Shown piece by piece: positions 39,440 through 63,439 of a stretch of 64,000 nucleotides of DNA (position 1 is its first letter; each line of letters starts with the position of its first letter). The stretch comes from Neoalteromonas arenosi (GTDB taxonomy: Bacteria > Pseudomonadota > Gammaproteobacteria > Enterobacterales > Alteromonadaceae). The position numbers and the translations under genes were made by a program. The stretch is taken from contig NZ_JAUCBP010000011.1 in assembly GCF_030362855.1 (NCBI RefSeq), positions 62,001 to 126,000 on the forward strand, given 5' to 3'. The notes under the pieces were generated by a model. That model made no database searches. It saw nothing but the letters and a program-made list of their open reading frames with translations, and was not told where the DNA came from.

Positions 39440-39475
39440 ATTGGTATTCCTCGGTTTCTCTAGCGTTGCACAGGT

Positions 39476-40480: not shown

Positions 40481-40738
40481 AGTGGTACTTGTCACTGTTG
40501 CCCAATAGTAAGACGCATAAAATGCAACTTGCCGACGATGATCAAGAAATAAACGATACAACGGACTAGCAGCAGGTTAAGAAGGGACATCTTGGCAAAT
40601 TCAATCACTAGCTGGCCCGATAAGAAATCCACCTCACCGCACGACAAGGACGCATCATCTAATTTAACGGTTTTCGATTAACAGGTATGCAACAACTTCG
40701 TTTACATTCCATTAATCAAATTTTTAATCGCGTTGTAG

Positions 40739-46079: not shown

Positions 46080-47135
46080 TTAAATGTAAACCCTAGGAAC
46101 CCGCGCCGACACGCGTGTCATCAACTCATAGTCTATTGTGCCAGCGTTTTGTGCTACTTCGGTAATCGATTGGTTTGCACCCCATAACTCTACGGTATCG
46201 CCGACATCGATTTCAGTTCCAGTAACGTCAAAGGTGAGCATATCCATTGAGACGCGTCCAGCGAGCTCGATTTTCACACCGTTACAAAACGCTGTCGTCC
46301 CCGATGGTGCATGCCGTGGGTATCCATCACCATAGCCAATAGCCACCGTCGCGATTCGGCTCTCTCGGGTTGCTGTCCAAGTTGCGCCATAACCCACAGT
46401 CTCACCTTCGGCAATCGTACGTGTCGCAATCACCGGCGCCGTGAGCGTCATGACCGGTTTCAACGTGGCAACATCGGGGGCTCCTTGTCCGCCATATAGC
46501 GCAATTCCTGCGCGATTCCATGCACCATGTGCTTGAGGTACTTGCACAATTCCTGCAGAGTTCGCTGCACTTATGGGTAACGGATGTGCCGCTAAAAACT
46601 GCTGGAAAATAGTGAGCTGCTTAGCAGTTAAAGAATGTGCTTTATCGTCTGCACATGCAAAATGCGTAACCAGCACCGTGTGTTCATTAAATAACGACGC
46701 ATATTGCTGCCAGATGGCGGCTAATTCAGACGGCTGAAAGCCCAGCCGATGCATTCCGGTATCTATCTTCAACCATACTTCAGGTGGCGGTTGGTCCAGG
46801 GCAGCCAACCATGCAAGCTGTGCCTCTCGGTGAGCAACTACACAACAATTATTGGCCACCGCCCACTGTGCCTCGGTTTTATCATAAACACCTTCAAATA
46901 ATACTAGGCATTCCGTTATCCCCTGTTCACGCAGCAGGCGAGCCTCGTCGACAAAAGCGACACCAAAGCGCTGAGCATGGCCATGTAAGGCTCGCGCTAC
47001 CGCAATCGCTCCATGACCGTAAGCGTCAGCTTTTATCACCGCCAATGTTTGACCTTGCGAGTTGAGTTCTGCAAGTGTGTGGTAGTTACTCACCAATGCA
47101 CTTAAATCGATTGCTGCGCGCGTAGTTCGTGCCAA
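46080..47135 (-). CDS. alr: Alanine racemase
   Basis: PLP enzyme interconverting L- and D-alanine, 351 residues. The PLP lysine is in AVIKADAYGHG (about residue 34) and the catalytic Tyr in GYGDGYPRHAPSG (about 246). The start is a TTG at 47135 (MARTTRAAIDL) with AAGG upstream. Adjacent, divergent symporter and murQ genes suggest that this copy serves catabolism of wall-derived D-alanine rather than, or in addition to, wall synthesis; that is inference. Confidence 0.95.
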   Translation of the reverse strand: MARTTRAAIDLSALVSNYHTLAELNSQGQTLAVIKADAYGHGAIAVARALHGHAQRFGVAFVDEARLLREQGITECLVLFEGVYDKTEAQWAVANNCCVVAHREAQLAWLAALDQPPPEVWLKIDTGMHRLGFQPSELAAIWQQYASLFNEHTVLVTHFACADDKAHSLTAKQLTIFQQFLAAHPLPISAANSAGIVQVPQAHGAWNRAGIALYGGQGAPDVATLKPVMTLTAPVIATRTIAEGETVGYGATWTATRESRIATVAIGYGDGYPRHAPSGTTAFCNGVKIELAGRVSMDMLTFDVTGTEIDVGDTVELWGANQSITEVAQNAGTIDYELMTRVSARVPRVYI

Positions 47136-47190
47136 TTAAAAAGCCTTTTTGTAAACCCGATTGGAAGTTTGTTGGCAATATACATTGTCA

Positions 47191-47204
47191 ATAGAATATT
47201 CTAT
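47191..47204. promoter_or_regulatory. 14-bp perfect palindrome in alr/symporter gap
   Basis: atagaatattctat is a perfect palindrome 49 bases before the symporter start, in the 117-base divergent gap. Such AT-rich GAATATTC cores are common for RpiR/MurR-type and LacI-type repressors. No such regulator gene is in the window. It is a candidate operator for both sides. Confidence 0.5.
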
Positions 47205-47252
47205 GCTGCTGAGTAGCATTGCCTTGCATAAAGAATAACAAAAACGCTGACC

Positions 47253-48824
47253 ATGCTCGACCACTATTCCACTCTCGATGTAATCGTTTTTGGTGGCTAT
47301 ATTTGCCTCCTGATTGTTAGCGGCTTTTATATCAATCGCACAGCGAAGGATGGTAAAGATTTCTTTTTGGCCAGTCAGCGAATGCCGATTTGGGTTGTAG
47401 CCATCTCGGTACTTGCAACGTCGCAGTCTGCAGCCACGTTTTTAGGTGGGCCAGAACAAGGTTATCGCGGCGATCTGACGTACCTTGCCAGCAATATTGG
47501 CGCGGTCATAGCCGCATTTTTTGTCGCTTACATTCTCATCCCACGCTTCTACGCCGCCAACGTTTTTACCGTTTACGAACTGCTACAACAGCGCTTCGGC
47601 GCCCAAGCCAAACAACGAGCGGGGGCAATCTATCTTGCTGGGCGCTTTCTTGCGAGCGGTTCGCGTTTGTATATGGCTGCAATCGCCATTGCTCTAATTC
47701 TATTTGGTGATATCGCTGCATCAAGTGTATTGGCATCAGTATTACTGATTGCAACAGTGGGGCTGTTATATACGGTATATGGCGGTGTTCGCAGTGTGAT
47801 ATACAGCGATGTTTTACAGTGCTTGGTTTACGTCAGTGCAGCAATAGCGGTGGTGATATGGCTATGCTGGCAAATACCGAGCGATTGGCAGGGTGTTTTG
47901 CACGCATTACAGTATCCACTTGATGGCTCCACCAGCAAACTCCGGCTGTTTAATTGGCAGTTGGACTTTGCACCAATAGGCGTTTTTAGCATGGCCTCCG
48001 TACTGACCGGTTTTGTCCTCCTGAACATTGCAGCCTTTGGTCTGGATCAGGATATGACGCAACGCGTCTTAACCTGTAAGACAGCAGCTCACGGGGCCAA
48101 GGCTATGCTTATGTCTGTGGTGTTGGTTATTCCGGTGATGTTGATTTTCTTGTTTATCGGCTTATTACTCTATGTGTTCTATCAACGGCCAGACGTGATG
48201 AGCGCGAGTCACGCGCTCGATGCAACCCCTGCATTTGCAGGAGAAAGTGTTACTGTATTTATGTATTTCGTACTGACTGAGATGCCCGCAGGTCTTAAAG
48301 CATGGGTCACTATCGGTATTATTGCGGCAGCATTATCAACATTAAACTCGGGGCTTAATTCCATGGCATCAGTTATGGTCAAAGACTTTATTGAGCCTTA
48401 TCTGACCCGACGTACCTCGCCATTGAATCCACGACGTGAAGTTCGCCTAGGTCGCGTAATGATGACGGTTACTGCTGTCATACTCGCTGCGGTTGCGGGG
48501 CTGTGTTACTACTGGCAACAATACACGGATATGCCACTGCTACAGTTTGCGCTCAGTGTGATGGTATTTTCTTATAGTGGTCTTTTAGGTGTGTATTTTA
48601 CCCTGCTATTTACTGAGCGCGGCTCACTAATGTCGATGACACTTGCATTGATTGTCGGGTTCTCTGTTCCTCTATTATTACAGCCCTACATGCAAAATCT
48701 CTGGAAAGAATGGCTCCCGCAACTAGCGCTCGGGTTTACCTGGCAACTGTTACTCGGTACTCTATTTTCCATGGCCGTATGTATGTGCGGGAAACCAACG
48801 AATAAGGTTCAACTAGATGTCTAA
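47253..48824 (+). CDS. Sodium:solute symporter, candidate MurNAc/sugar importer
   Basis: A 523-residue SSS-family Na+ symporter with about 13-14 helices. The N-terminal [32 protein letters not shown] (quoted in part: [19 protein letters not shown]) and the later [15 protein letters not shown] segment are typical of SGLT/NanT-like sugar and sialate symporters. It overlaps murQ by 8 bases, so uptake and MurNAc-6P processing are co-translated. I infer MurNAc, GlcNAc-MurNAc or a related wall product as substrate. This replaces the PTS MurP seen next to murQ in E. coli and Bacillus. Confidence 0.8.
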
Positions 48825-49749
48825 TGACACCAGTGCGCTGCTCAAGCAACTCGAGACTATTGCTTCTGAAGCTCGTAACCCTGCCACGATGGATATTGAT
48901 ATTCTGCCAACCAAAGGTATCTTGCAATGCATCAATAGCCAAGATCAATTGGTCGCTTTAGCCATTGAAAAGTGTTTAGACGATATCGCTCTCGCCGTTG
49001 ATGCCATTGTCGATGCAATTCAGACCGGAGGGCGTTTATTTTATATTGGCGCGGGTACCAGTGGGCGTTTAGGCATTTTAGATGCGGTTGAGTGCCGTCC
49101 CACATTTAGCGTTGACGATGAACTAGTACAAGGCATTATCGCCGGTGGCAGCAAAGCCATAGAACACGCGATTGAAGGGGCTGAGGACGACCAGCAAGCA
49201 GCAATAGATGACTTAAAAAAACGCACTTTTAATTCATCTGATGTATTGGTTGGTATCGCTGCCAGCGGACGCACGCCTTATGTGATTAGTGCACTCAACT
49301 ATGCAAGCCAGCTCGGTGCCAAAACTATCGGCATCAGCTGTAGCCCAAATTCAGCGGTCGAACAGGCTGCGAGTATTGGCATTTGTGCCCAAGTAGGACC
49401 TGAATGCCTCACCGGCTCTACGCGAATGAAGTCAGGCACAGCGCAAAAGCTTATTTTAAATATGTTAAGCACTGCCACTATGATCAGGTTAGGAAAGACC
49501 TACCAAAATTTGATGGTCGACGTAAATGCCAGTAATCAAAAACTGCGTGCTCGCGCCCAGCGCATTGTAATGCAAGCAACAGGATGTGATGCATCAACAG
49601 CTGTAGTGCATTTAAACGCAGCTGATCAACAATCCAAATTGGCCATTCTTACTGTGCTGACGGGCTTAGACGTAGACGCTGCCCGAGCACTATTGGCGAC
49701 CAATCAGGGCTTTTTACGCCGTGCAGTGGAACAGCACAATGATGTGTAA
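48817..49749 (+). CDS. murQ: N-acetylmuramic acid 6-phosphate etherase
   Basis: Cleaves the lactyl ether of MurNAc-6-phosphate to GlcNAc-6-phosphate and D-lactate. The 310-residue SIS-domain protein has [20 protein letters not shown] with the catalytic Glu (VECRPTF, about 90), EGAEDD with the second Glu (about 120), and the C-terminal [15 protein letters not shown] signature. It overlaps the symporter by 8 bases and namZ by about 11 bases. No MurNAc kinase gene is in the window, so the phosphorylated substrate must come from elsewhere. Confidence 0.96.
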
Positions 49750-50908
49750 GTCTCTGTATCATTGGCTTTTGATTAGTTGGTTGGTGTTTTTGCCGACCAC
49801 CAGCGATGCGTTAACCGTGGGTGCCGAGCGTCCTGACGCGTATCTCCCTCTTCTTAAGGATAAACGCGTAGGCTTAGTAGTTAATCATTCCTCACGGGCC
49901 TTTGATCAGCATTTAGTTGACTACTTAATAGCCCAAGACGTTAAAGTGACAGCAATTTTTGCACCCGAACACGGATTCCGCGGCAACCGCGGTGCGGGCG
50001 AAGCAATAGCGAATGAACACGATGTTAAAACCGGCCTGCCTATCCACTCACTGTATGGTAAAACGCGAAAACCTACGGCAGCGATGTTAGCTAATGTAGA
50101 TACTTTGGTATTCGATATCCAAGATGTTGGTGTGCGCTTTTACACGTATATTAGTACGATGCATTATGTCATGGAAGCTGCTGCCGAAAATGATAAAAGC
50201 GTCATTGTTTTCGATCGCCCCAACCCTAACATTGCCCATATAGATGGTCCGCTCCTTGAACCCGAACAACAATCATTTGTGGGCATGCATCCTATCCCGC
50301 TACTGCACGGTATGACCGTTGCTGAATTAGCCCAAATGATCGTCGGCGAAAAGTGGTTGGACACGCAGGCATCAATTACCCTTCATACCATTCCTATCTT
50401 GGCGTATAGCCGCAATACGGCGTACAACTTGCCCATTGCACCAAGTCCCAACTTACCCAACGCGCAATCAATTCAGTTGTATCCGTCATTATGCTTGTTC
50501 GAGCCCACGATTATGAGTATCGGTCGCGGTACTGATTTTCCTTTTCAGGTGCTCGGTCACGATCACCTGCAACTAGGCAGTTTCCGTTTCACGCCCCAGA
50601 GTATGCCAGCCAGCGCACCCTATCCTAAATTGCAAGGTGTTGAGCTCACAGGTCTAGATTTACGCAACGACACGCGCAGCGGTTTAACGCTCGATCTGTT
50701 GCTCACTGCCTATCAACAAGCGGTTACGTCAGAGCTTGAATTTTTTACCTCGCCATCATTCTTCGACAAGCTTGCTGGCACTAAAGCACTGCGAGAAGCG
50801 ATAATCGCAGGACAAAATGAAACGCAAATCAAGGCAATGTGGCACGCCGATTTGAGCGCATTTAAGCAACAAAGGCAGCCGTATTTAATTTATCAGGAAC
50901 CCCACTAA
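49739..50908 (+). CDS. namZ: Exo-beta-N-acetylmuramidase NamZ (DUF1343, GH171)
   Basis: Removes non-reducing MurNAc from MurNAc-containing wall fragments. The 389-residue product has a signal peptide ([17 protein letters not shown]..., cleavage near SDA|LT), so it acts outside the cytoplasm. DUF1343 landmarks: [45 protein letters not shown] and DGPLLE. The family was assigned as exo-muramidases in Bacillus subtilis and Tannerella. I take the first of two adjacent ATGs, overlapping murQ by 11 bases. An earlier ATG at 49721 is unlikely. Confidence 0.9.
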
Positions 50909-50920
50909 CAGGGCTTGTCA

Positions 50921-52228
50921 ATGGATTGGATTGTGCATCACTACTGGCCAGAACTGGATCGCAAACATGTGCGCAGGGCTGATATTGAGCCGATACTCGA
51001 ACATTTTCGCTCCCGCCCAGAAATAAACATTCAGTTGCTTGGCCATTCGGTGCAACAGCGTCCGATTGAACTTGTATCTATTGGCCGTGGTAAGCAAGTG
51101 GTCCTCGCTTGGACCCAAATGCACGGTGACGAGCCTACAGCAACGGCTGCGGTATTTGATATCATCGAGCAGCTACTGAGCGATAATCGTTCTTTGGTTA
51201 CACAGGTCTTGAACCATTTTACGCTACACTTTATTCCAATGCTCAATCCCGATGGTGCCGAACGCAAAACGCGCGAAAATGCACAAGGAATCGATATTAA
51301 TCGCGATGCCAGAAAACGTTGTTCACCGGAGGCGCAGATACTGCACAATGCTGTGAGTAAATTGCGACCAGATATCGCCTTTAACTTACATGACCAAAAC
51401 CGCTATTACGGTGTAGGCAATACTGATGAGCTATCAACTATTGCCTTCTTAGCACCGCCATTTGACCAGGAGCAAAGCGTTAACCATGCGCGTGGCCGCG
51501 CCATGTCACTCATCGCTGTTATGCGGCAAGTATTGGAAGCTCGAATCAACGGTCATGTGGCCCGCTATATGGATGAATACTCACCGCGCTGTTTTGGTGA
51601 CACGATTGCAGCTATGGGGGCTAGCACCCTATTAATAGAATCAGGTGAATTCCCGAACGACCCCAACCGCCAAACTGCCCGAGCAATGAATCGACTGGCG
51701 ATTTTTACTGCTTTGGATGCTGTCAGCCAAAACACATGGCAGGATGTAGGAGAAGCGGACTACTTTGCTATTCCGGCTAATAATGAAAACCATTGGGGCG
51801 ATATTGTACTTCGTAATGTTACATTTGCTGGGAACGCCAATTCAGTCGAATTTCAAACCGACATGCTGATTCGAAAAGTCGAAGGAGAGTACCAAGTTGC
51901 TGAAATTGGTGATTTAGCTGACCAACGTGGAATCACTGAATTAGGATGTGACCAACTGACGCTCAGCAGAGGTGAACCCTACAGAGTGTCTGAGCCCCTT
52001 ACCTTGGACGACCTTGCTTACAGAGCTATACTCAAAAACGGATATAGCCATTTTATTGATACAAATGACAATTTAGCTGTGCGAACCGAGTTACCTGTCT
52101 TTAGCACAACACAGCCACTACCCACCACGTTTCATAAGTTGCCCGCAATTGGGATATTGAGTACTGCAGGCTCTCCTCGATATGCAGTACTTGGACGTAA
52201 AGTAGTCGAGCTGGAAGGGGAGCCCTAA
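50921..52228 (+). CDS. M14 family metallocarboxypeptidase, probable muropeptide amidase
   Basis: A zinc peptidase of 435 residues without a signal peptide, so cytoplasmic. Zn ligands are His68 and Glu71 (MHGDEPTA), and a later His in NLHDQ (about 152); the catalytic Glu is in LIESGEFPND (about 231). The NRDARKR motif holds the substrate-carboxylate Arg. The C-terminal 180 residues form an additional, unrecognised domain. The location suggests it cleaves wall peptides in the way that MpaA does with gamma-D-Glu-mDAP, but specificity is inferred. The ATG at 50921 follows AGGG. Confidence 0.75.
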   Translation: MDWIVHHYWPELDRKHVRRADIEPILEHFRSRPEINIQLLGHSVQQRPIELVSIGRGKQVVLAWTQMHGDEPTATAAVFDIIEQLLSDNRSLVTQVLNHFTLHFIPMLNPDGAERKTRENAQGIDINRDARKRCSPEAQILHNAVSKLRPDIAFNLHDQNRYYGVGNTDELSTIAFLAPPFDQEQSVNHARGRAMSLIAVMRQVLEARINGHVARYMDEYSPRCFGDTIAAMGASTLLIESGEFPNDPNRQTARAMNRLAIFTALDAVSQNTWQDVGEADYFAIPANNENHWGDIVLRNVTFAGNANSVEFQTDMLIRKVEGEYQVAEIGDLADQRGITELGCDQLTLSRGEPYRVSEPLTLDDLAYRAILKNGYSHFIDTNDNLAVRTELPVFSTTQPLPTTFHKLPAIGILSTAGSPRYAVLGRKVVELEGEP

Positions 52229-52231
52229 CCG

Positions 52232-52885
52232 ATGGCGGCTATTCCCTATGAGGACAATATTGCCAAACCCTTATGGCTACCGCGGCATCAGGAAAAGTTA
52301 GCCGAAGTAGCAAAGCGCGGTGATGAGATCCGCTTGGTATTTATTGGCGATTCAATCATTCACGCTTGGGAGGACTTTGGTGAGTCAGCATGGCATGCAC
52401 ATTTTGCTATGTACGGTGCACTTAACTTAGGCTTTGGCGGCGACCGCACCGAACACGCGCTCTGGCGGGTAGCTAACGGTGAACTAGACGGTTTAAACTC
52501 TCAGGTAGTTGTTTTGATGATAGGCACCAACAATACCGGACATCGAAAAGATCCAGCTGACTACACGGCACGAGCTATTACGCTGCTGGTTGATGAGATA
52601 CACCAGAGATTACCAAACGCACATATTCTATTACATGCAATTTTTCCACGAGGGAAAACCGCTTCAGACCCTTTGCGCTCACTAAATAATGAGATTAATC
52701 GGCAAATTCAACACCTAGAGCAGCGTGTGTATGTAACCTGGCTGGATTTCACTCATCTGTTTCTGCAGAGCGACGGTAGTTTAAGCCGTGAGATCATGGA
52801 CGACTATCTTCACCCCAACGCTAATCAATATCCGCGTTGGGCTGCAGCATTACAACCGCATATTAAACAGTATTTAAAAAAGTAA
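52232..52885 (+). CDS. SGNH/GDSL hydrolase, possible sugar O-acetylesterase
   Basis: A 217-residue hydrolase with all SGNH blocks: the nucleophilic Ser in FIGDSIIH (about 41), Gly in NLGFGGDRT, Asn in MIGTNNTGH, and the Asp-x2-His pair in MDDYLHPN. No signal peptide. It follows the M14 gene by 3 bases and is the last gene of the symporter-murQ-namZ run. The family includes PAF-acetylhydrolase-like and carbohydrate esterases; removal of O-acetyl groups from MurNAc would fit the context but is not demonstrated. Confidence 0.8.
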   Translation: MAAIPYEDNIAKPLWLPRHQEKLAEVAKRGDEIRLVFIGDSIIHAWEDFGESAWHAHFAMYGALNLGFGGDRTEHALWRVANGELDGLNSQVVVLMIGTNNTGHRKDPADYTARAITLLVDEIHQRLPNAHILLHAIFPRGKTASDPLRSLNNEINRQIQHLEQRVYVTWLDFTHLFLQSDGSLSREIMDDYLHPNANQYPRWAAALQPHIKQYLKK

Positions 52886-52943
52886 TTTAATGCTAACCCC
52901 TTTCTTCGCTGTTCGGCGTTAGTCGAGTAAAGAGGAGAGAAAT

Positions 52944-53588
52944 ATGCAAAACGCAACGCAAATACATCAAACCAGTCATCTTCAAGCGGCGACCAAAGCG
53001 TTAACCGCAAGCTTGATTGGCGGTGCAGTAACTTTTGGTCTGTTTGCTTTAATGCACGGCTTGATTGACCAAGAAGCCGTTGGTGTAAGCACTCTGCCGG
53101 AGCCTGTCATTATCGATGCAATATTTAAAGCTGAAGAAGAAACCATCGTCGAGCGAGAGAAACTGCCAGAGCCACCACAAATCAAAGAAATCCCTGACCG
53201 GCCTATTGAAAATCCTGTGGATATTGACGAGCCTGATACCCAGTGGACGTATGCACCAACAATTGACACAGGCACGACATTGACGGATATTTTGAGTTTC
53301 GGAATGCAAGACAGTGAACTAAGACCGTTGGTAAGAGTAGACCCGCGCTACCCTATCGACGCGGCAAGAGATGGTATCGAAGGCTGGGTCCAAATGACGT
53401 TTAATGTCAATGAGTTAGGTGGCGTTACTGACATTCAGGTCATTAATGCCGAACCCAAACGCGTATTCAATCAAGAAGCTAAACGAGCATTGGCAAAGTG
53501 GAAGTATCAACCTAAATCCGTTAATGGCAAAGCGGTTGCACAACAAGGCCTGAGCGTTGTGTTAGAATTTACATTAGCAGATAACTAA
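52944..53588 (+). CDS. tonB: TonB energy transducer
   Basis: A 214-residue TonB-family protein that conveys proton-motive force to outer-membrane receptors. A transmembrane helix is at about residues 22-42, a Glu/Pro-rich periplasmic linker at 55-105 (EREKLPEPPQIKEIPDRP), and the C-terminal TonB domain at about 125-214 (RVDPRYPIDAARDGIEGWVQ). No exbB/exbD accompanies it. The ribosome site is AGAGGAGAG. It is 58 bases after the esterase gene and leads a three-gene group with a sigma factor and a membrane protein. Confidence 0.9.
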   Translation: MQNATQIHQTSHLQAATKALTASLIGGAVTFGLFALMHGLIDQEAVGVSTLPEPVIIDAIFKAEEETIVEREKLPEPPQIKEIPDRPIENPVDIDEPDTQWTYAPTIDTGTTLTDILSFGMQDSELRPLVRVDPRYPIDAARDGIEGWVQMTFNVNELGGVTDIQVINAEPKRVFNQEAKRALAKWKYQPKSVNGKAVAQQGLSVVLEFTLADN

Positions 53589-53597
53589 GGAGTTTGG

Positions 53598-54176
53598 GTG
53601 AGCATTACTGTCGCAATCAAAGGCTGGTTTACACGCGAAACATCAAATGAACAATTGATGCTACGCTACACCAAGCTGCGTCAACGGCAAGTTTTGGCGC
53701 AGCTGTACGAAAATTGCGGTGACGACTTATATCACTTTTTGCTCACCCTCTCTGATCCTGAATTGGCCTCGGATATTGCTCAACAGGCATGGATAAAAGT
53801 CATTGAAAAGTCACACTTATATCGTCCTGACGGCCAGTTTAAGTCGTGGCTCTTCACCATAGGCAGAAGATTATTGATTGATGAATTACGTCGCCAAGCC
53901 CGCTATCAATACGATGAATTCGACGAGCAGCATCACGCGTCGCCAGTATTCGATAATGATGATCGGCTTGTTCGGTTTAATCAAATTCTGGATGACTTGC
54001 CTTTCCATCAACGTGAGGCTTTCTGTTTACAACAGGAGGGCTTTTCACTGGCAGAGATCAGTAGTATTTGCGCTGCCGAACAAGAAACGATTAAGAGTCG
54101 CTTGCGCTATGCAAAACGCAAGTTAAACAAAGCGCTGAGAACCAGCCAAGCAAGCGAGGATTTCCGTTATGACTGA
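53598..54176 (+). CDS. ECF-type sigma-70 factor
   Basis: A 192-residue ECF sigma factor. Region 2 spans about 20-100 (DPELASDIAQQAWIKVIE and FKSWLFTIGRRLLIDELRR) and region 4 about 130-185 (LPFHQREAFCLQQEGFSLAEIS with the recognition helix ESIK-like ETIKSRLRYAKRKL). The start is a GTG at 53598 with AAGGAG upstream, 9 bases after tonB. It overlaps the next gene, a one-helix membrane protein, by 8 bases, the usual arrangement with an anti-sigma factor. The target genes are unknown; envelope or TonB-linked uptake is plausible. Confidence 0.88.
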   Translation: MSITVAIKGWFTRETSNEQLMLRYTKLRQRQVLAQLYENCGDDLYHFLLTLSDPELASDIAQQAWIKVIEKSHLYRPDGQFKSWLFTIGRRLLIDELRRQARYQYDEFDEQHHASPVFDNDDRLVRFNQILDDLPFHQREAFCLQQEGFSLAEISSICAAEQETIKSRLRYAKRKLNKALRTSQASEDFRYD

Positions 54177-54750
54177 GCAAGACAAACAATTACAGCAGTT
54201 GTATCAGCAACGCAAGTCCGCCGTTAAAACGCCGACAGAGATAAAACAAGTCGCGCTCGGTCAATCCAAACAGTCTGCGACTGTGTCTCCTCACAGCTGG
54301 CCTGTTTTTGGTCGCCAAATGGGTATGGTAACGGCCTGTGTTGGCCTGCTGGCACTTGGTTTATTAGTACGCCACACAATAACAGGCTATCAAGAGCCAG
54401 AATACGTGCATGCCAATATTGAATATCACGCATTGAGTGACGAGGCCGTCAGCGTTAACACCGCTAGACGAATAGATTATGAAAATGCGACTCAGGCGTT
54501 CCAAGAGAGCCAGTTACGAATAGCTATCCATCACAAAAAACTGGCGCAAATTGCCAGTATCGGTGACGGTTGGGAATTGAAAATGTGCGATAACAGTGCT
54601 CTGAGTATCAGCCCAATGTTGCTTGCTGAGCTTGCCGCTAACAACGCCCTGAAAATTGACATCGAACGCGGCGACTTCGTCCAAATTGCTTTTTCAGATG
54701 CAGGACGGATCCTGGCAATTGAAAAACAGCCCACAACTAGGCATTGCTAG
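54169..54750 (+). CDS. Single-pass membrane protein, probable anti-sigma factor
   Basis: A 193-residue protein with a cytoplasmic N-terminus of about 45 residues (MTEQDKQLQQLYQQRKS), one transmembrane helix near 48-68, and a periplasmic C-terminal domain. The topology and the 8-base overlap with the sigma gene suggest an anti-sigma regulator, but no ZAS/HxxxCxxC motif is seen, so the assignment rests on context. The 3' end overlaps the convergent mscS gene by 14 bases. Confidence 0.55.
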   Translation: MTEQDKQLQQLYQQRKSAVKTPTEIKQVALGQSKQSATVSPHSWPVFGRQMGMVTACVGLLALGLLVRHTITGYQEPEYVHANIEYHALSDEAVSVNTARRIDYENATQAFQESQLRIAIHHKKLAQIASIGDGWELKMCDNSALSISPMLLAELAANNALKIDIERGDFVQIAFSDAGRILAIEKQPTTRHC

Positions 54751-55780: not shown

Positions 55781-55790
55781 CGTGATTGTC

Positions 55791-57659
55791 CTATTCAGGT
55801 GATTTGGCCGGCGCTAATGTTACGGGCAGTGTGCCAGGAGCTCTAATATCACCTTGTAAAAACTCAGCGATCACATCAAACACTATACCTCCCGGCCTGC
55901 CGGCCTCGGTCTGTAACACGCGATAATCATAAGTGACTATAGCCAGATCAACATACTCAGCAAACTGTTCGATAACATAAGGCGCTCTTAATGCCACAAA
56001 AATACGCGTTTTATTTTCTTTAGTAGCCGCGGCAAGCGCGTAATTAGTCCACGCGAGCTGCTCGTTTTTGTCGATCCGGTTTTGCCACACAATCAAATCA
56101 TCCATACCCCCCATTTCGGCAAGGCTATGCGACGGTGAGATATCACCGATCATAACCGCATCGGCGCTTGCAATAAGGTCATCTAAGGTAGACTTAACAA
56201 CTTGGTTGGCTAAGCTAATGCAGCCTAAAACCTGATACTCGCGACTTACCAGTGCATCAGTTTGCGCCTGGCAACGAGCCTCGTCGGGCATTATAAGCAT
56301 CAGTGCCTCGCGTTTTGCCAATGTAAATTGAGGATCGCCTACTACTAAGGTTAATGACGCTTGGGCCAATTGCTCCGCAAGTCGACTAAATTTTGGCATT
56401 TCTATAGTAGCGCTACTCGCAATCGATACCTGCTGCAAAAAGCATTGTTTTAGTCTCTCGATCCGCTGTGCTGACTGGCGCATTTGTTTTGATGTCGGAA
56501 CACCGGAAACGGCGCTTTTGTCATTCGCGCTAATTGCAGAATTTATGTGTGCAAGCATTTCATCAAATTCAGCGATAGCATTTGCATTGCGCAGTGGCAT
56601 TGGCATCAAGGCAATATCAGCGCCCGCGTAAAAGGTGTGCAAAAGTGCATCTTTCGGTGTCAAATAGGCTGAAATTCCAGCCATATCCAACGCATCAGTG
56701 ACTACTACACCTTGGTACTTCAATTCCTCACGCAATAGCCCTGTGAGGATACGGCGAGATAACGTCGCTGGCACTATGGTGGCCTCACCATTTACACTAG
56801 TAAACACACTATTGTCGAGCGCGGGATATTGAATATGGGCTGTCATGATCATCCCTGGTGCAGCTTGATCTCCTGCGGCTATGGCCATAGCGAAAGGATA
56901 CAAATCGACGCGTTCAACCACATCGCGACTGTGCTCAACTACCGGTAATCCAGTATGGCTGTCAACATGAGTGTCGCCATGACCGGGAAAGTGTTTCATT
57001 GCCGAGATAATTCCGTTACTTTGCAGCGCCGAAACTGCGGCTTGACTAAGCTGCGCGACCACCTCAGGTGATTCGGAATAAGACCGAACATTTATAACCG
57101 GGTTAAGAGGATTTACATTAACATCTACAGCAGGCGCGAAATTAACGTTTATCCCAACCGCATTAAGCTGTTGTGCAATCGCAGTATTTACCGCTGTGGC
57201 GTAATGGGTTTGATGCTTTTCATAAGTGGCTCCAATCGCCATATTACCGCTAAAAGCACTGGTGGCGGTAACGGGCAAACGCGCAACGCGACCGCCTTCT
57301 TGATCAACCGCAATCAACAAAGGTGGCAAACCTGCTGCTGCCGCAGCTGTTTGTAACTGCTCAATAAGACTCCGAACCTGTTCAACTGATTGAATATTTT
57401 CAGCAAACAGTATGACGCCGCCGATATTATGGCGCTGAATGACCTTTGCAAGCGGCTCAGGCAAACGGGTTACAGGTGTTCGACAGTTATCAGCGGGCGT
57501 TCCATCAGCACAAAAGTAGCGAATATCCAACATCAACTTTTGCCCGATATCTGCGCCCAGTTGGTTTGCCACGGCCGAGAATGTGCAACAGTACATCGCT
57601 ACCACCCCAAGCATCCCCAATAGCGTTTGTTTACTCACACTTTTCGCCCCTAGCATCAT
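55791..57659 (-). CDS. nagZ: Exported GH3 beta-N-acetylglucosaminidase, NagZ-like, two-domain
   Basis: Releases GlcNAc from wall fragments. The 622-residue protein has a signal peptide (cleavage near AVA|NQ, about residue 32), then the GH3 barrel with KHFPGHGDTHVDSHTGLP holding the Asp-His acid/base dyad (about residues 225-242) and VVVTDALDMAG with the nucleophilic Asp (about 320). A second GH3 C-terminal alpha/beta domain occupies about 410-615. Typical gammaproteobacterial NagZ is about 340 residues, single-domain and cytoplasmic, so this one resembles secreted Bacillus NagZ. The ATG pair at 57659 has only a weak AGG upstream. Confidence 0.9.
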   Translation of the reverse strand: MMLGAKSVSKQTLLGMLGVVAMYCCTFSAVANQLGADIGQKLMLDIRYFCADGTPADNCRTPVTRLPEPLAKVIQRHNIGGVILFAENIQSVEQVRSLIEQLQTAAAAAGLPPLLIAVDQEGGRVARLPVTATSAFSGNMAIGATYEKHQTHYATAVNTAIAQQLNAVGINVNFAPAVDVNVNPLNPVINVRSYSESPEVVAQLSQAAVSALQSNGIISAMKHFPGHGDTHVDSHTGLPVVEHSRDVVERVDLYPFAMAIAAGDQAAPGMIMTAHIQYPALDNSVFTSVNGEATIVPATLSRRILTGLLREELKYQGVVVTDALDMAGISAYLTPKDALLHTFYAGADIALMPMPLRNANAIAEFDEMLAHINSAISANDKSAVSGVPTSKQMRQSAQRIERLKQCFLQQVSIASSATIEMPKFSRLAEQLAQASLTLVVGDPQFTLAKREALMLIMPDEARCQAQTDALVSREYQVLGCISLANQVVKSTLDDLIASADAVMIGDISPSHSLAEMGGMDDLIVWQNRIDKNEQLAWTNYALAAATKENKTRIFVALRAPYVIEQFAEYVDLAIVTYDYRVLQTEAGRPGGIVFDVIAEFLQGDIRAPGTLPVTLAPAKSPE

Positions 57660-57722
57660 CGATTGAACCTATTGGCTAGAACATCTATTATCTAGCGAAT
57701 ATTTTTTAATGGAACGGAGTCC

Positions 57723-58604
57723 ATGACCTCGAAAATTGTACTCTTATTAGTTGGCACTCTCTGCATTTCTGCATGCAAATCAACCAAACAATCTGTTGTT
57801 AGTCATGCTAACAAGCCTTTGGCGATGCCAGAAACTGTTTATATTGTTCCCCAAGAGTCAAATATTAATGTCCTGCTGACCGAGTTAGGTTATGACGGTA
57901 ATGATATTGCTGCAACTATGTATCAAGCGAATTTAAATGCCTCGATGCAAAGTGTAAATTACGATCCTTTGGCGGGACTTGCTGGAGCACTGATCGGCGG
58001 AGCAATTTTGAAGAACTCAGCCGAAAATTCCGCGATCAGGGAGAAAAACTCTCCCGTTCAACAGTTTTTAACAGTAGCTGAGCAAATTCAGTGGCAAGAG
58101 GTGTGGCACCCTGATTGGCAAGCCGATTTAGCACCGTCAAAACCACAGACCACACATTTACAGATCACGCCTGAAACATCACTCAGCAGCGATTACCGGT
58201 CGTTAATCTCAGTGTTTTTTGTCGAGGTATACGCTGACCGAAAAGAGTTGCTGTATCGCAACTACTTTCATTTAGAATCTGCCCCTTTATTGGATCTGAA
58301 TACTTCACTGCACCAGCTTAACAACATTGACTCCGGAGAAATAGTGAATGACTTCACCGCCGTCAGTGAGCGCTTATTATTGCTGGTTGAACAAGCATTG
58401 GAGACTTGGTCTAAACGTTCTCGGTTTGCGAATCATTCTATTCGGTACAAAAACAAACGTGGGGAGTTTTACTCTCGAGGCGAAGTGTTACAGCCGTGTG
58501 ATGGTTTTATCACTTTTCGCACGCTGCGTGGTGAAATAAAACAAGCGCCGTGTATTGTAGCGCCGATACCTGCCGAGCAAGTATCGGCATCGAGTCACTA
58601 CTGA
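57723..58604 (+). CDS. Uncharacterised lipoprotein
   Basis: A 293-residue protein with a lipoprotein signal ending in CISAC (Cys near 18). A glycine-rich hydrophobic GLAGALIGGAIL segment lies near residue 85, and the rest is mixed alpha/beta without recognised motifs. It is divergent from nagZ and converges with the next lipoprotein, overlapping by 7 bases. The function is unknown; its position inside the wall-recycling island suggests envelope work. Confidence 0.6.
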   Translation: MTSKIVLLLVGTLCISACKSTKQSVVSHANKPLAMPETVYIVPQESNINVLLTELGYDGNDIAATMYQANLNASMQSVNYDPLAGLAGALIGGAILKNSAENSAIREKNSPVQQFLTVAEQIQWQEVWHPDWQADLAPSKPQTTHLQITPETSLSSDYRSLISVFFVEVYADRKELLYRNYFHLESAPLLDLNTSLHQLNNIDSGEIVNDFTAVSERLLLLVEQALETWSKRSRFANHSIRYKNKRGEFYSRGEVLQPCDGFITFRTLRGEIKQAPCIVAPIPAEQVSASSHY

Positions 58605-59335
58605 CCAGAAGCGACTTGTTGTGCGGCCACCTTATTCTTGGGGTTACCCTCTAAACTACCCACCAGTTCACGAGTAGAAGTCTCTAGCGCTTGATAAATA
58701 GCAGTTGTAAGGTTAGGAAATTGAACTTCACTCTCGTCCCATGGCGTCTCAATCACTTGCTGCGAAGAAGCGTCGTAGAACCATTTAAGATCATGGGTGG
58801 CTAAATCAATAATTTGACCACTCATTGCTACCGTCGCGACGGGCTCTGATGTAGGTACGGGGCCATAATAACTTCGAGTAGTACCGACCTGTTGGAGGTG
58901 AACTAACAGCAAATAATCAATGTTGTACTTTTCTTGGTAACCGACAAAACTGGTTTTCGATTTGCCTTTAGATGGGCGCTTAAGTTTTTCCGCCTCTTTT
59001 AGGGCTATAGGCGTTTCGATCAGTAGAGTATTCACCCCTTTGTTGTGTAATACCGTTTGCAATTGCTGGGCAATTTTTGGGTAATCATCAAATACTAGCG
59101 AATTTAAATGTTTGTCTAATGTTGAGTTGACGCCGGCGATGATTGCATAATCCAACAAACCTATACTGCCGGTGTAAAACGTCTCTGCTAGGGGGGCTTC
59201 AGTAAGAATAATGCCAACCACAACCTCGTTATTCGACAATGAGGCTTCATCAACAGTGATCATTTCTTGGGTTGACACACAACCGCTGAGTACAACGATT
59301 GCTACTAAAAGTGTAAAAATACGCGTTTTAAACAT
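58598..59335 (-). CDS. Uncharacterised lipoprotein
   Basis: A 245-residue lipoprotein (lipobox VLSGC, Cys near 19). The body has a repeated alternation of beta strands (VVVGIILTEAPL, NTLLIETPIAL, DYLLLVHLQQVG) and an acidic/polar C-terminus, but I do not recognise a family. Divergent from the amidase fusion across 197 bases, so a shared control region is possible. Confidence 0.6.
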   Translation of the reverse strand: MFKTRIFTLLVAIVVLSGCVSTQEMITVDEASLSNNEVVVGIILTEAPLAETFYTGSIGLLDYAIIAGVNSTLDKHLNSLVFDDYPKIAQQLQTVLHNKGVNTLLIETPIALKEAEKLKRPSKGKSKTSFVGYQEKYNIDYLLLVHLQQVGTTRSYYGPVPTSEPVATVAMSGQIIDLATHDLKWFYDASSQQVIETPWDESEVQFPNLTTAIYQALETSTRELVGSLEGNPKNKVAAQQVASGQ

Positions 59336-59532
59336 ATTACTTCCTTTATTTTTTTAATAATTTCCATCAGTCATACAACATGCTTGAAGAGCACATTGAA
59401 CGCGGCGAGTTTATGAGAAAACACCGTCTTGTTCAATGGCTATATCCGTCTCCTTCGTGCTCTCTATGCAGGGTTTGACAGCTATCTCGACATGAGGCCA
59501 AATAAACCTATCTGAATAGAGATGGATTTATC

Positions 59533-61995
59533 TTGCCTGTGCGCTTCAAAATTTGCACCTTACTGCTGACACTACTGCTTTTTAACTGCTCACACCTTCC
59601 CATTGAACACGTGCCATCAGCCAATCAAAATTCTCGTATTAAAGCTATCGTGCTGCATTACACCGGAGCAAGTTATGCCCAATCTATTGAGGGGTTAGTG
59701 GATGAAGGCGGCGTTAGTGCGCACTACCTAATTCCCGAGTCAGGCGATTCATCTTATCGTCATGATAGGCTCAAAATTTTTCAGTTGGTGGAAGAGCAAT
59801 CGCGTGCTTGGCATGCTGGTTTAAGTACGTGGCAAAACATGACCGGCCTAAACGACCAGTCAATTGGTATCGAGATAGTGAATCGCGCACATTGTCCGAA
59901 CGATAACAACTCCGGCAAACACCGAACGGTAAATAGCCAACGCTTACAATGTAATTATCCTAACTATGATCCTGAGCAGATCGCGTTATTAATCGCTTTG
60001 CTAAAAGACATCTTGCAGCGCAACCCCGATATTCACCCCACAGCCATTGTTGGCCACGCTGATATTGCACCGCTGCGTAAACACGATCCCGGTCCGCGCT
60101 TTCCCTGGTATGAACTACATATGGCAGGTATTGGGGCGTGGTATACCACCGATACTAAAGAAAAATACACGCGAATATTTCAGCGGCAATTACCGTCGAT
60201 GGGGCTGACACAAGCGGCCCTGAATGCTTACGGTTACCCAGCAATAGAAACCGGCATAGCTGATGAACGCACCTTAGCCACCATCGCTGCTTTTCAAATG
60301 CATTTTACTCCCGAAAATCTCAACGGCTACAGCGACATCGCCACAAATGCAGCGTTGTTTGCATTGCTCGAACGGTATTTCCCTGAGCAAGTTGTTGAGT
60401 TAATGACGCGCTTTGAAAGTGAACGTGAAGCATCAACTCAACCCTCACTGGTTAACAAGACTACCCAACTACAAATGCAGTTTCCTGATGCTGAGTTATC
60501 GTCGCGCGAGTACGTTAATCATCGCCGTCGATTTATGGCCTATCAAGGCCGTGGCGAAATAAAAATAGCAAACCCAGGGCTCGTTCCCATTTCTGCTGAT
60601 ATTTGGATTAATGGCCAACAACTTAACTTACCCGACGTTTTTCTGCCTGATACCGACTACCAATACTCGCTTCACCGTCGCACGGTCACTGGCTCCAATA
60701 CGATTCGCGTCGACAATATTCAACCCGCTGATGCACAAATAATGGTGTCTATCCCCTATCCGCAAGTAATGGATACTCGCGACAGTGACTATGAATTTGC
60801 AGCGGTTGATGCATTGATAGAACAAGACATAAATGAGGGCTTCCCCGGCGCAGTGCTGTTGGTTACCCATCGCGGCCAGGTTGTGCATCACAAAGCGTAC
60901 GGATATGCCCACCGCTATGCTCCCGATGGCAGTGAATTAGAAAACCCCGTCCCCATGACGACTGATACCCTGTTTGATCTGGCCTCAAATACCAAAGTAT
61001 TCGCTACCACCTTGGCGATCATGCACCTTGTTGAACAGCAAAAATTGGCCTTGGATATACCACTGTATGAGTATCTACCAGAGTTTCGCGGTGATGGTCG
61101 CGATGCTTTAACTGCGCGTCATCTGCTGACTCACAGTGCGGGTTTGGCGCCAGAAGTCCACTTTTTCACACCGGAGAATCATCTAGGCCCGGAGTTTTAC
61201 TCCCAATCTGCTCCTTTGACCAAAGAGCTCCTGCTTACTCAAGTACCTTTGGAGGAGCGTTATCAAGTTGCCATGCGCTACAGTGACAGCAGCTTTATGC
61301 TGTTGGGTATTTTAGTCGAACGCATCACTGGGTTCCCACTTGATGAATACGTTGAGCAGAATATTTACGCGCCACTGGGTTTAAGCCAAAGTGTATTTAA
61401 TCCGCGCAAAAAACTGCCAGAAACAACGCGTTACGCTGCGACAGAATTACAGGGCAATACCCGCGACGGGCGGGTGAACTTTGACAACGTCCGCAATTAT
61501 ACACTTAGCGGAGAAGTCCATGACGAAAAAGCCTTTTACAGCATGCAAGGGGTTGCAGGTCATGCCGGTTTATTTTCTACCGCAGAAGAGCTCGCGCGTC
61601 TGACCCAACTCTTGTTAAATGGCGGCGGACTAGGTGAACACTACTTATTTTCAGAGACTGTGTTAAATCAGTTTATTCTGCCAAGCTCAATTAGTGATAC
61701 GACTGGGCTGGGCTTTCGGCGCGCTGCAAATGGCGAACGGCGCTGGCAGTTTGGCCCTTATGCCAGTGAACGTACCTTCGGCCATACTGGCTGGACGGGG
61801 ACATTAAGCGTTATCGATCCTGAGCATGATTTAGTGATCATCCTACTGACCAATAAACGCCACACCCCCATTCAACAAAGTTTGGATCCCAACGGTAATG
61901 AAACGCTTAACTTTGCCGGTCAGAATTATGAAACAGGTCAATATGGCAGTATCGTCAGCTTAGTATACGAAGCGGTATTACATCGACGCTTTTAA
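59533..61995 (+). CDS. Fusion of AmiD-like zinc amidase and AmiE/beta-lactamase-like serine hydrolase
   Basis: An 820-residue exported two-enzyme protein. An N-terminal lipoprotein-like signal has Cys19 in the non-canonical LFNC. An Amidase_2 domain (about 35-200) has the AmpD/AmiD zinc ligands His42, His175 and Asp185, catalytic Glu114 and Lys183. A peptidoglycan-binding-like helical region follows (about 222-290), then a beta linker (about 325-415). A serine beta-lactamase-like domain (about 425-815) has SxxK at 485-488 (SNTK), Tyr583-Ser-Asp585 and HTG at 751-753. Bacillus YbbE/AmiE is of the latter type and acts as MurNAc-L-alanine amidase. The start is a TTG at 59533, or a GTG two codons later. 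Confidence 0.85.
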   Translation: MPVRFKICTLLLTLLLFNCSHLPIEHVPSANQNSRIKAIVLHYTGASYAQSIEGLVDEGGVSAHYLIPESGDSSYRHDRLKIFQLVEEQSRAWHAGLSTWQNMTGLNDQSIGIEIVNRAHCPNDNNSGKHRTVNSQRLQCNYPNYDPEQIALLIALLKDILQRNPDIHPTAIVGHADIAPLRKHDPGPRFPWYELHMAGIGAWYTTDTKEKYTRIFQRQLPSMGLTQAALNAYGYPAIETGIADERTLATIAAFQMHFTPENLNGYSDIATNAALFALLERYFPEQVVELMTRFESEREASTQPSLVNKTTQLQMQFPDAELSSREYVNHRRRFMAYQGRGEIKIANPGLVPISADIWINGQQLNLPDVFLPDTDYQYSLHRRTVTGSNTIRVDNIQPADAQIMVSIPYPQVMDTRDSDYEFAAVDALIEQDINEGFPGAVLLVTHRGQVVHHKAYGYAHRYAPDGSELENPVPMTTDTLFDLASNTKVFATTLAIMHLVEQQKLALDIPLYEYLPEFRGDGRDALTARHLLTHSAGLAPEVHFFTPENHLGPEFYSQSAPLTKELLLTQVPLEERYQVAMRYSDSSFMLLGILVERITGFPLDEYVEQNIYAPLGLSQSVFNPRKKLPETTRYAATELQGNTRDGRVNFDNVRNYTLSGEVHDEKAFYSMQGVAGHAGLFSTAEELARLTQLLLNGGGLGEHYLFSETVLNQFILPSSISDTTGLGFRRAANGERRWQFGPYASERTFGHTGWTGTLSVIDPEHDLVIILLTNKRHTPIQQSLDPNGNETLNFAGQNYETGQYGSIVSLVYEAVLHRRF

Positions 61996-62065
61996 GCAGT
62001 TGCGCATCGTCCAACACTGTGCAAAGCTGCGCTTGTCCGCAAAATTAGAACAATAAGGAACCGCA

Positions 62066-63439
62066 ATGGGTTGGTACTCGATCATTCCACCGCTAATTGC
62101 TATTGCCATCGTCTTTTGGAAAAAAGAAGTCATTATGGCTCTTCTTTTCGCAGTGCTTAGTGCGGAAGCTTTACTTCTTTTCGGTGCGGCGGATGGCTCA
62201 GTGTGGCTTAGCCCTATCAACAGCGTTGAGCGAGTTATTGAGATCATAAACAGTCCCGGCAACTCCCGCATTTTATTATTTAGTGTTCTTATTGGCGCCC
62301 TTTTAGCCTATATCCGCGACTCCGGTGGCGTTGCAGCAACGGTTAATTTTTTGGTTAATCGCGGCATTGCCAAAGGCCGTAAGCAAGTCGGCAGTTTGAC
62401 TTTTTTTACTGGTGTGGCGGTGTTTATTGAGTCTAATTTGAGCGTGCTCACGTCCGGCATTCTAGCGCGCGGTTTGTTCGATAAATTCAAAATGAGCCGA
62501 GCGCGCTTGGCCTATATTATCGATAGTACCTGTGCGCCGATTTGCATTCTTATTTTACTCAATGGCTGGGGCGCTTTCGTGTTGGGCTTACTGAGTAACT
62601 ACGAGCTCAGTATGTCACCGGCTGAAATTCTATGGGGCAGCGTACCACTTAATTTCTATGCGCTATTCACCTTAGGCATCGTGCTCTACACCATTCTTGC
62701 TGACAAAGTACACGGCCCAATGAAAGAAGAAGAGGCTGTTCTGTCAAGTACTGATACGGAATTGCAAACAGCGCCAGCCACTAAAGTGCGCTTTATGTTA
62801 GTCCCGCTGTTAGTGATGGTGGGCACTATGCCGCTGTTCATGCTGTGGACTGGCGACGGAGTATTGTCTCAGGGCAGCGGCAGTAAATCAGTACTCTACG
62901 CCACAATGTTAGGTTGTATTGCCGCGTATTTACTTCTGCTCGTGCACCGCCGCTTTACGCATCAAGAATTGGTAAAAACCGGTTTCAAAGGTATGGGGGA
63001 ACTACTACCTTTAGTGACGATTTTGTTGCTCTCACTGACACTTGGAGCAAGCCTAAAAGCCTTAGGTACCGGTGTATTTGTCGCCAGTATAGTGGGAGAA
63101 TATCTACCGCTAGTGTTGATTGTTCCGCTATTGTTTTTGGCCGGTGCAGTTATGTCGTTTACTACGGGAACCAGTTGGGGCACATTTGCTATATTAGTGC
63201 CTATTGGTGTTCCGCTGATTCAGACCTTTGGCTTGCCGCCACAGCTCGTATTAGCGGCAATTCTAGGTGGTGGTATTTTTGGTGATCACTGCTCACCCAT
63301 ATCGGATTCAACAGCAGTATCGTCGATTGCTGCTGGCTGTGATTTACTCACCCACGTGAAGACCCAACTGCCCTACGCACTGGTTGCCGGCGGCTTGAGC
63401 TTAGTGGCATTTACCATTGCCAGTGCGGTAATGATATAG
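62066..63439 (+). CDS. NhaC-family Na+-coupled transporter
   Basis: A 457-residue inner-membrane transporter with about 11-12 helices of the NhaC/Na+:H+ antiporter superfamily. The GTSWGTFAILVPIG and GDHCSPISDSTAVSS motifs near the C-terminus are family signatures. The ATG follows AAGGAAC by 6 bases, 70 bases after the amidase fusion. Relatives include Na+/H+ antiporters and the malate/lactate antiporter MleN. Since MurQ makes D-lactate, a lactate-exchange role is conceivable here; this is inference only. Confidence 0.85.
   Translation: MGWYSIIPPLIAIAIVFWKKEVIMALLFAVLSAEALLLFGAADGSVWLSPINSVERVIEIINSPGNSRILLFSVLIGALLAYIRDSGGVAATVNFLVNRGIAKGRKQVGSLTFFTGVAVFIESNLSVLTSGILARGLFDKFKMSRARLAYIIDSTCAPICILILLNGWGAFVLGLLSNYELSMSPAEILWGSVPLNFYALFTLGIVLYTILADKVHGPMKEEEAVLSSTDTELQTAPATKVRFMLVPLLVMVGTMPLFMLWTGDGVLSQGSGSKSVLYATMLGCIAAYLLLLVHRRFTHQELVKTGFKGMGELLPLVTILLLSLTLGASLKALGTGVFVASIVGEYLPLVLIVPLLFLAGAVMSFTTGTSWGTFAILVPIGVPLIQTFGLPPQLVLAAILGGGIFGDHCSPISDSTAVSSIAAGCDLLTHVKTQLPYALVAGGLSLVAFTIASAVMI

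Follow-up and report, generated by a model that had tools for sequence, protein, structure and literature searches.

A probable accessory locus for N-acetylmuramic acid use, with a sodium-symporter-family importer, in Neoalteromonas arenosi

What is a cluster of wall-directed enzymes, a MurNAc-6-phosphate etherase and a sodium symporter doing side by side in Neoalteromonas arenosi, and how much of their neighborhood belongs to the same system? The genes lie at positions 46080-63439 of the window analyzed here, a 64-kb stretch (G000:C11:62001-126000) of a 3.74-Mb genome. A sequence-only reading had described these 17 kb as an island for the catabolism of peptidoglycan and N-acetylmuramic acid (MurNAc), with a sodium symporter instead of a phosphotransferase system (PTS). 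All the genes it named are present by Pfam and NCBIfam profiles, which were scored against the family cut-offs throughout, and the gene families support a locus of this kind. We consider it highly probable that this is an accessory MurNAc-utilization locus with a sodium-coupled importer. Four things can be read directly from the sequence: the families of the genes, their retained catalytic motifs, the layout of the operon and its conserved linkage. What the symporter carries, its coupling to sodium, the acting kinase, the roles of the M14 and SGNH proteins and any growth benefit are inferred from these.

The core of the locus is one tight operon (47253-52885) in the order SSS-murQ-namZ-M14-SGNH, SSS being the gene of the sodium:solute symporter. 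SSS and murQ overlap by 8 nucleotides (nt) and murQ and namZ by 29 nt, while gaps of 6 and 3 nt separate namZ from M14 and M14 from SGNH. The true start of namZ may be an in-frame ATG at 49739, which gives an 11-nt overlap with the murQ stop. The catalytic motif of MurQ is kept, and this is the only MurQ over the cut-off in the genome. NamZ carries both of its domains, NamZ_N and NamZ_C, with 4jja as best solved relative (E = 3.1e-105). By crude hydropathy, on which all signal sequences were judged (lipoboxes were judged by eye), NamZ has a hydrophobic N-terminus, as do two further enzymes of the locus, NagZ2 and an AmiD-PBP4B fusion; MurQ, M14 and SGNH have none. The nagZ2 gene lies on the opposite strand 2.9 kb beyond the operon and the fusion gene another 1.9 kb on.

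Conservation was followed in two samples. The first comprises 59 genomes including that of the window, 35 of which (G000-G034) form its family; among these, G001-G003 are genus mates, namely Alteromonas flava P0211 (G001/L084), A. facilis P0213 (G002/L085) and a third. The second consists of the best 80 of 352 SSS relatives found with 14 SSS queries, and its counts therefore apply to close orthologues and not to SSS proteins at large (Alteromonadaceae 36, Pseudoalteromonadaceae 16, Idiomarinaceae 10, Colwelliaceae 4, Chromatiaceae 2, Vibrionaceae 1, without family name 11). The gene content of these 80 loci was scored by tblastn; some end at contig ends, which makes absences there uncertain, and six (L084, L085, L087, L093, L114, L118) share contigs with relatives of the genome set, so the two samples are not independent.

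Linkage in relatives had been set beforehand as a test of the sequence-only reading, and the genes are not scattered: murQ lies within 3.5 kb downstream of SSS on the same strand in 76 of the 80 loci and anywhere in the locus in 78, with namZ in 68, NagZ2 in 48 and M14 in 31. Across the 59 genomes, NamZ occurs in 19, MurQ over its cut-off in 27 and AnmK in 54. Within the family, 17 genomes have both NamZ and MurQ, one has NamZ alone (G020), one MurQ alone (G005, with SSS-murQ-M14) and 16 neither (Fisher p = 7e-8); without the genus mates, at one genome per genus, the counts are 14/1/1/16 (p = 7e-7). AnmK matches are found in all 35, that in G031 being a fragment at a contig end. The patchiness of NamZ and MurQ beside an AnmK in every family member marks the locus as an accessory MurNAc-catabolic one. 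Wherever the family has both genes, murQ directly precedes namZ (17/17), and SSS precedes the pair in 15 of these genomes. The clustering is beyond chance, since the core recurs in other genera.

NagZ2 aligns over residues 34-618 of 622 with its best solved relative, YbbD (3bmx, E = 2.7e-84), keeps the KHFPGHGDTHVDSH and VTDAL motifs, and scores 190.6 bits as an NCBIfam beta-N-acetylhexosaminidase, just under the cut-off of 207. The fusion has an Amidase_2 match, a PG_binding_1 match just under the cut-off, and an NCBIfam PBP4B score of 412.4 bits (cut-off 385). AmpDh3 and AmiD are the best solved relatives of its amidase half. The amidase histidines are kept, as are SNTK, YSD and HTG of the serine-hydrolase half, and from family and motifs this PBP4B/AmiE-type half is a putative MurNAc-L-Ala amidase. 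The motifs cited for MurQ, NagZ2, the fusion and M14 are catalytic, and all enzymes of the locus look intact. By eye, no lipobox is seen in NagZ2 of the window and that of the fusion is off-consensus (LFNC), with clear lipoboxes in several orthologues of both. AmiD and PBP4B each have matches in 18 of the 80 loci. Of the AmiD-containing open reading frames (ORFs), the six complete ones all carry the PBP4B half; two truncated ones extend into it, and 18 are truncated before it. Both halves are also matched in four loci of the genome set (L025, L027, L029, L035), two of which share contigs with the 80-locus set. Six Alkalimonas loci (two of them truncated by the contig start) have a PBP4B ORF on its own immediately upstream of SSS. 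By gene position, this is a link between the PBP4B/AmiE family and MurNAc use that does not depend on E. coli yfeW or B. subtilis amiE.

In the pathway that we propose, the exported enzymes would strip wall fragments, the fusion removing the stem peptide, NagZ2 taking off N-acetylglucosamine (GlcNAc) and NamZ taking off MurNAc from non-reducing ends. The SSS symporter would bring free MurNAc, and perhaps also 1,6-anhydro-MurNAc (anhydroMurNAc), inward with sodium. A kinase encoded elsewhere would then form MurNAc-6-phosphate, from MurNAc through one of two NagK-type PF01869 kinases (on contigs C1 and C12) and from anhydroMurNAc through AnmK. MurQ would split the product into D-lactate and GlcNAc-6-phosphate, the latter entering the NagA/NagB route encoded on C1. 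A cytoplasmic role in trimming imported wall peptides is probable for the M14 enzyme.

As the source of the MurNAc, the sequence fits the cell's own wall and foreign wall alike and cannot separate the two. Because the genome's only MurQ is the one found here and AnmK is encoded elsewhere, own recycling very likely uses this MurQ too. It is possible, though we think it improbable, that self-recycling is all there is, with the same genes and steps salvaging own wall turnover that escapes AmpG, as in B. subtilis. The genome does have an AmpG-type permease, a separate 336-aa NagZ-type enzyme (on contig C7) and AnmK elsewhere. An AmgK-MurU pair was not seen, in that a crude adjacency test detected no nucleotidyltransferase motif in the ORFs beside eight PF01636 matches; with a single MurQ over the cut-off, AnmK products therefore probably pass through it. 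On the other side stands the distribution in the family, where AnmK is universal and only 18 genomes have MurQ over the cut-off, 17 of them with NamZ. Some relatives also add genes beyond the needs of self-salvage: among the 80 loci, TonB receptor-like proteins occur in 25, D-lactate dehydrogenase-like proteins in 21, D-glutamate cyclase in 4 and PxpA, PxpB and PxpC types in 3, 3 and 2, for which we take LamB_YcsF plus CT domains to be 5-oxoprolinase. An epimerase (21-22 loci), NlpC/P60 (21) and LD-carboxypeptidase (4) were counted as well. The accessory distribution, the exported enzymes and the relatives' genes for peptide, D-glutamate and D-lactate catabolism would fit wall dissimilation. 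The suggestion of feeding on wall fragments, and not only self-recycling, gains indirect support from these genes in a minority of loci, from the patchy distribution and from the exported hydrolases. B. subtilis recycles with a like set (PMC5061867, in excerpt).

The kinase step varies most among the relatives. Among the genes queried, a PF01869 kinase stands between SSS and murQ in 34 of the 80 loci, in four of them as a kinase-murQ fusion (representatives were checked with Pfam), and murR is present in 60. A tree of 87 kinases, whose context labels were assigned manually, has a clade of 43 rows (100/100), the MurK clade, that unites the operon-linked and fused kinases with a single unlinked row (L162); the five kinase-etherase fusions of about 615 aa are one clade (100/97). 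The 80 loci divide into 36 with a MurK-clade kinase, 24 with another PF01869 kinase and 20 in which no kinase was seen. In G005 and L139 a kinase of a non-MurK group overlaps alr, divergent from SSS-murQ, and in ten Pseudidiomarina loci a nag operon including its kinase adjoins the locus. In Vibrio sinaloensis (L163:8989-13502), SSS, MurK, AnmK and MurQ follow one another in a row, suggesting that MurNAc and anhydroMurNAc both feed into the pathway.

Set against this background, several observations weigh against MurNAc utilization by the window's locus. The operon of the window lacks a PF01869 kinase, as do those of the three genus mates, and it also lacks MurR, two absences that the sequence-only reading had not remarked on. 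Elsewhere in the genome, the protein closest to the MurR of a genus mate is 27% identical to it and is HexR. The genes of NagZ2 and the fusion are outside the operon. Two relatives, G009 and G026, have MurQ-NamZ without the symporter, G020 has NamZ without MurQ or the symporter, and the Fisher test ignores kinship beyond genus. An operon-type MurK elsewhere in the genome had to be rejected as well: there are two PF01869 proteins, one in the C1 nag operon and one orphan on C12, both fall outside the MurK clade, and both match NCBIfam NagK best (287 and 247 bits, cut-off 370). The C1 operon has NagB-II and NagA over their cut-offs, a NagP-like carrier and the NagK-type kinase under theirs, and a GH20 protein. 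Orphan PF01869 copies occur in all three genus mates, two grouping with the window's (95/76) and the third unplaced; in A. flava the single PF01869 protein is outside any nag operon. In the window's genome the step would fall to a NagK-type enzyme with MurNAc activity or to AnmK acting on the anhydro sugar.

The latter leads to a second alternative, in which the symporter carries anhydroMurNAc, not MurNAc, wherever MurK is unlinked, and AnmK is the kinase. The window's genus, with AnmK and without a linked kinase, would suit it, as would the failure to find a MurNAc kinase among the genome's PF01869 proteins and the place of AnmK in the V. sinaloensis operon; AmiD and exported NagZ acting on lytic-transglycosylase products would free anhydroMurNAc. 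We nevertheless judge it unlikely. The adjacent NamZ releases MurNAc and not its anhydro form; of the 44 loci that lack a MurK-clade kinase, 24 hold another PF01869 kinase, 10 of those 24 in the neighboring nag operon; and AnmK is so nearly universal that its presence does not discriminate. A speculative combination, which we also judge rather unlikely, is that in the window's genus the AmpG-AmpD-NagZ salvage logic has moved outside the inner membrane: a lytic transglycosylase, AmiD-PBP4B and exported NagZ would release both anhydroMurNAc and MurNAc, as free sugars, in the periplasm for import by a single sodium symporter, and the kinase step (operon MurK, MurK-MurQ fusion, a NagK-type enzyme nearby or unlinked, or AnmK) would have been swapped repeatedly around a constant symporter and etherase. 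As a separate observation, a Slt-type soluble lytic transglycosylase is encoded at 30762-32816 (- strand) of the window, 14 kb upstream of the operon, and could supply anhydroMurNAc ends.

MurNAc utilization also depends on the symporter itself. Its best solved relative is the sodium:solute symporter 5nv9 (E = 1.9e-49), which we take to be the sialic-acid carrier SiaT; the next best match in the window's genome has E = 9e-30. Residues S362/T363, S366 and D186 align with S342/S343, S346 and D182 of 5nv9, and N365 lies opposite its S345, all of which on the 5nv9 side presumably form the sodium sites. The invariant R131 and R138 flank the column of what we assume to be the carboxylate arginine of SiaT, in a part of the alignment that is uncertain and was not used. 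MurNAc as substrate and coupling to sodium would follow from family and context. That the protein imports some other acidic sugar or a peptide, with its place beside murQ reflecting co-regulation, is very improbable in our view, for although SSS substrates are not readable from sequence and SiaT carries a different acidic sugar, 76 of 80 orthologues adjoin murQ and 34 loci have their genes in the order SSS-kinase-murQ, as in the proven MurTKQ operon. An SSS tree labelled by kinase type, made by a quick method and with long branches flagged including the window's row, has eight label changes and serves as background.

How much of this is new? The exchange of a PTS for a sodium symporter, noted in the sequence-only reading, is not, since the Tannerella forsythia MurT-MurK-MurQ system has the same plan: its murTKQ operon runs importer-kinase-murQ, with MurT of the sodium symporter superfamily and MurK of PF01869 (PMC5790795, in excerpt). 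MurT has been called a novel transporter family conserved in Bacteroidetes (PMC7670621, in excerpt), and NamZ1 and NamZ2 are named for T. forsythia in a reference title (PMC5790795, PMC10465942 and PMC7670621, in excerpt). The likeness lies in superfamily and operon plan, that is, a sodium-symporter-superfamily importer in an operon with murQ and PTS-independent entry of MurNAc, and the SSS-PF01869 kinase-murQ order recurs in the 34 relatives given above; the window's operon differs in lacking a kinase and in the namZ, M14 and SGNH genes that follow murQ.

The B. subtilis set, noticed in the sequence-only reading, is matched by MurQ, the PBP4B/AmiE-type hydrolase, two-domain NagZ and NamZ, all linked in the window; the long YbbD alignment of NagZ2 bears this out. 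For this comparison we take B. subtilis ybbC to be namZ, and E. coli PBP4B to be unfused. The B. subtilis operon is murQ-murR-murP-amiE-nagZ-ybbC and is used in recycling, with YbbD as the former name of NagZ (PMC5061867, in excerpt). It has the PTS importer MurP where the window's operon has SSS (PTS genes elsewhere in the genome were not sought), and MurR, which was not found in the window's genome; in the window, moreover, the AmiE-type domain is fused to an AmiD-type amidase and the set is not all in one operon. E. coli has murQ-murP-yfeW with murR divergent (PMC5061867, in excerpt), and there too MurQ is linked to an importer and to PBP4B, the family whose cut-off the C-terminal half of the fusion passes; its importer is a PTS, and E. 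coli is not among the control genomes with NamZ_N. Beta- and gammaproteobacteria are described as having either MurQ or AmgK-MurU (PMC5371407, in excerpt). The anabolic AmgK-MurU-MupP recycling of Pseudomonas shares AnmK with the window's genome, which differs in having MurQ and, by the crude adjacency test, no AmgK-MurU pair.

No description of this Alteromonadales locus was found in the open-licence literature, as judged by titles and abstract starts. Nor did the papers listed there describe the gammaproteobacterial form, with its namZ in the operon, its loss or replacement of the kinase, and its kinase-etherase and AmiD-PBP4B fusions. If our reading is true, oral Bacteroidetes are not alone in sodium-driven MurNAc catabolism; marine Alteromonadales would commonly have it as an accessory trait, which would provide a genetic handle on consumers of bacterial cell walls in the sea. 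The loci also allow separate, fused, replaced and absent kinases to be compared in a natural setting where importer and etherase stay the same, and the amidase-serine hydrolase fusion has two halves open to assay.

Not all of the 17 kb belongs to the conserved unit. Besides the genes in Table 1, 46080-63439 holds tonB, an extracytoplasmic function (ECF) sigma factor, a putative anti-sigma factor without a family match, MscS and two lipoproteins. The tonB gene lies 58 nt beyond the SGNH gene and forms with the sigma and anti-sigma genes a trio (52944-54750) directly 3' of the operon. Despite ECF and tonB genes near namZ and nhaC in the relative G020 (L020), tonB and the ECF sigma factor were rejected as parts of the system (0/80 loci; the anti-sigma gene was not in the query set), as were MscS (1/80) and the two lipoproteins, lipo293 and lipo245 (0/80). 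All six look like passengers, so that of the proposed island the clustered core stands and the full extent does not. A foreign genomic island was likewise rejected, since GC content, taken in 4-kb steps, stays even along the window at 0.437-0.485. Promoter and terminator scans gave 26 sites (27.0 expected) and 33 sites (18.7 expected), respectively.

The alr gene is divergent from SSS across 117 nt. It is present in 25 of the 80 loci and adjoins SSS in 24 (21 divergent, 3 co-oriented). Since the genome has no other Ala_racemase_C match, the alr product must also be the biosynthetic alanine racemase, which tells against a dedicated part; it is possibly used for D-Ala from wall peptides as well. 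An NhaC-type antiporter occurs in 12 of the 80 loci in differing arrangements. As the NhaC family includes organic-acid exchangers, this protein might conceivably export D-lactate.

Table 1. Positions of the genes discussed, in window coordinates unless a locus is named.
Feature	Position	Strand	Basis or remark
alr	46080..47135	-	TIGR00492
SSS-family sodium symporter	47253..48824	+	PF00474; proposed MurNAc importer, perhaps also anhydroMurNAc
murQ, MurNAc-6-phosphate etherase	48817..49749	+	TIGR00274 404.6 bits, cut-off 302
namZ, exported exo-beta-N-acetylmuramidase	49721..50908	+	NamZ_N 257.9 bits, NamZ_C 98.4
M14 metallo-carboxypeptidase-fold enzyme	50915..52228	+	PF00246; no signal sequence seen by crude hydropathy
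SGNH/GDSL hydrolase, operon end	52232..52885	+	PF13472
NagZ2, exported two-domain GH3 beta-N-acetylglucosaminidase, NagZ/YbbD type	55791..57659	-	PF00933
Amidase_2 (AmiD/AmpDh3) + PG_binding_1 + PBP4B/AmiE-type serine hydrolase fusion	59533..61995	+	exported, perhaps lipoprotein
NhaC-family antiporter	62066..63439	+	PF03553
PF01869-MurQ fusion ORFs	L026:10793-12637	-	others in L094, L119, L132, L158
DUF885 protein	L145:10560-12431, L150:9213-11165, L153:10574-12445		

The M14 motifs HGDE, NLHD and IESG are largely invariant across 19 sequences, and a model (A2, 19 sequences) with a pLDDT of 90.5 is nearest to the bacterial M14 carboxypeptidases 4b6z, 3k2k, 4a37 and 3l2n, at TM scores of 0.46-0.48 of the query (0.48 for 4b6z and 3k2k) and with partial cover. 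An identity as MpaA was rejected, with a sequence E of 0.16, no place among the 50 folds listed and an NCBIfam MpaA score of 23.9 bits against a cut-off of 157. SGNH at the operon end was seen only in the window's genus, in one of the 80 loci (A. flava) and two of the three genus mates. In A. facilis about 3.6 kb follow namZ, yet no match to M14 or to SGNH was obtained. The SGNH protein of the genus mate L022 starts with a hydrophobic stretch, unlike that of the window, and from its family we infer a hydrolase role.

We also noticed a few genes outside the proposed pathway. At 37560-42169 of the window, a GPH-type sugar symporter has three GH17-like neighbors, of which one passes the Pfam cut-off and two fall just short of it; they are perhaps for a beta-1,3-glucan, for example laminarin. 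Three metagenome-assembled genomes of Glaciecola encode, between SSS and murQ, a DUF885 protein whose start resembles that of a lipoprotein. Finally, 27 of the 80 loci, the window's not among them (L084:5449-6729 and 26 more), encode a protein that is exported and about 430 aa long. Of 17 members scanned, 16 have no Pfam match, one weak DUF236 match being the exception, and there is no convincing sequence match in the PDB. Its model (pLDDT 88.3) loosely resembles class A beta-lactamases (best E 1.3e-6, TM 0.35 of the query), S129, S131 and K132 (an SxxK) and S179-N180 are invariant, and it is possibly an undescribed family of wall-acting serine hydrolases tied to MurNAc loci.

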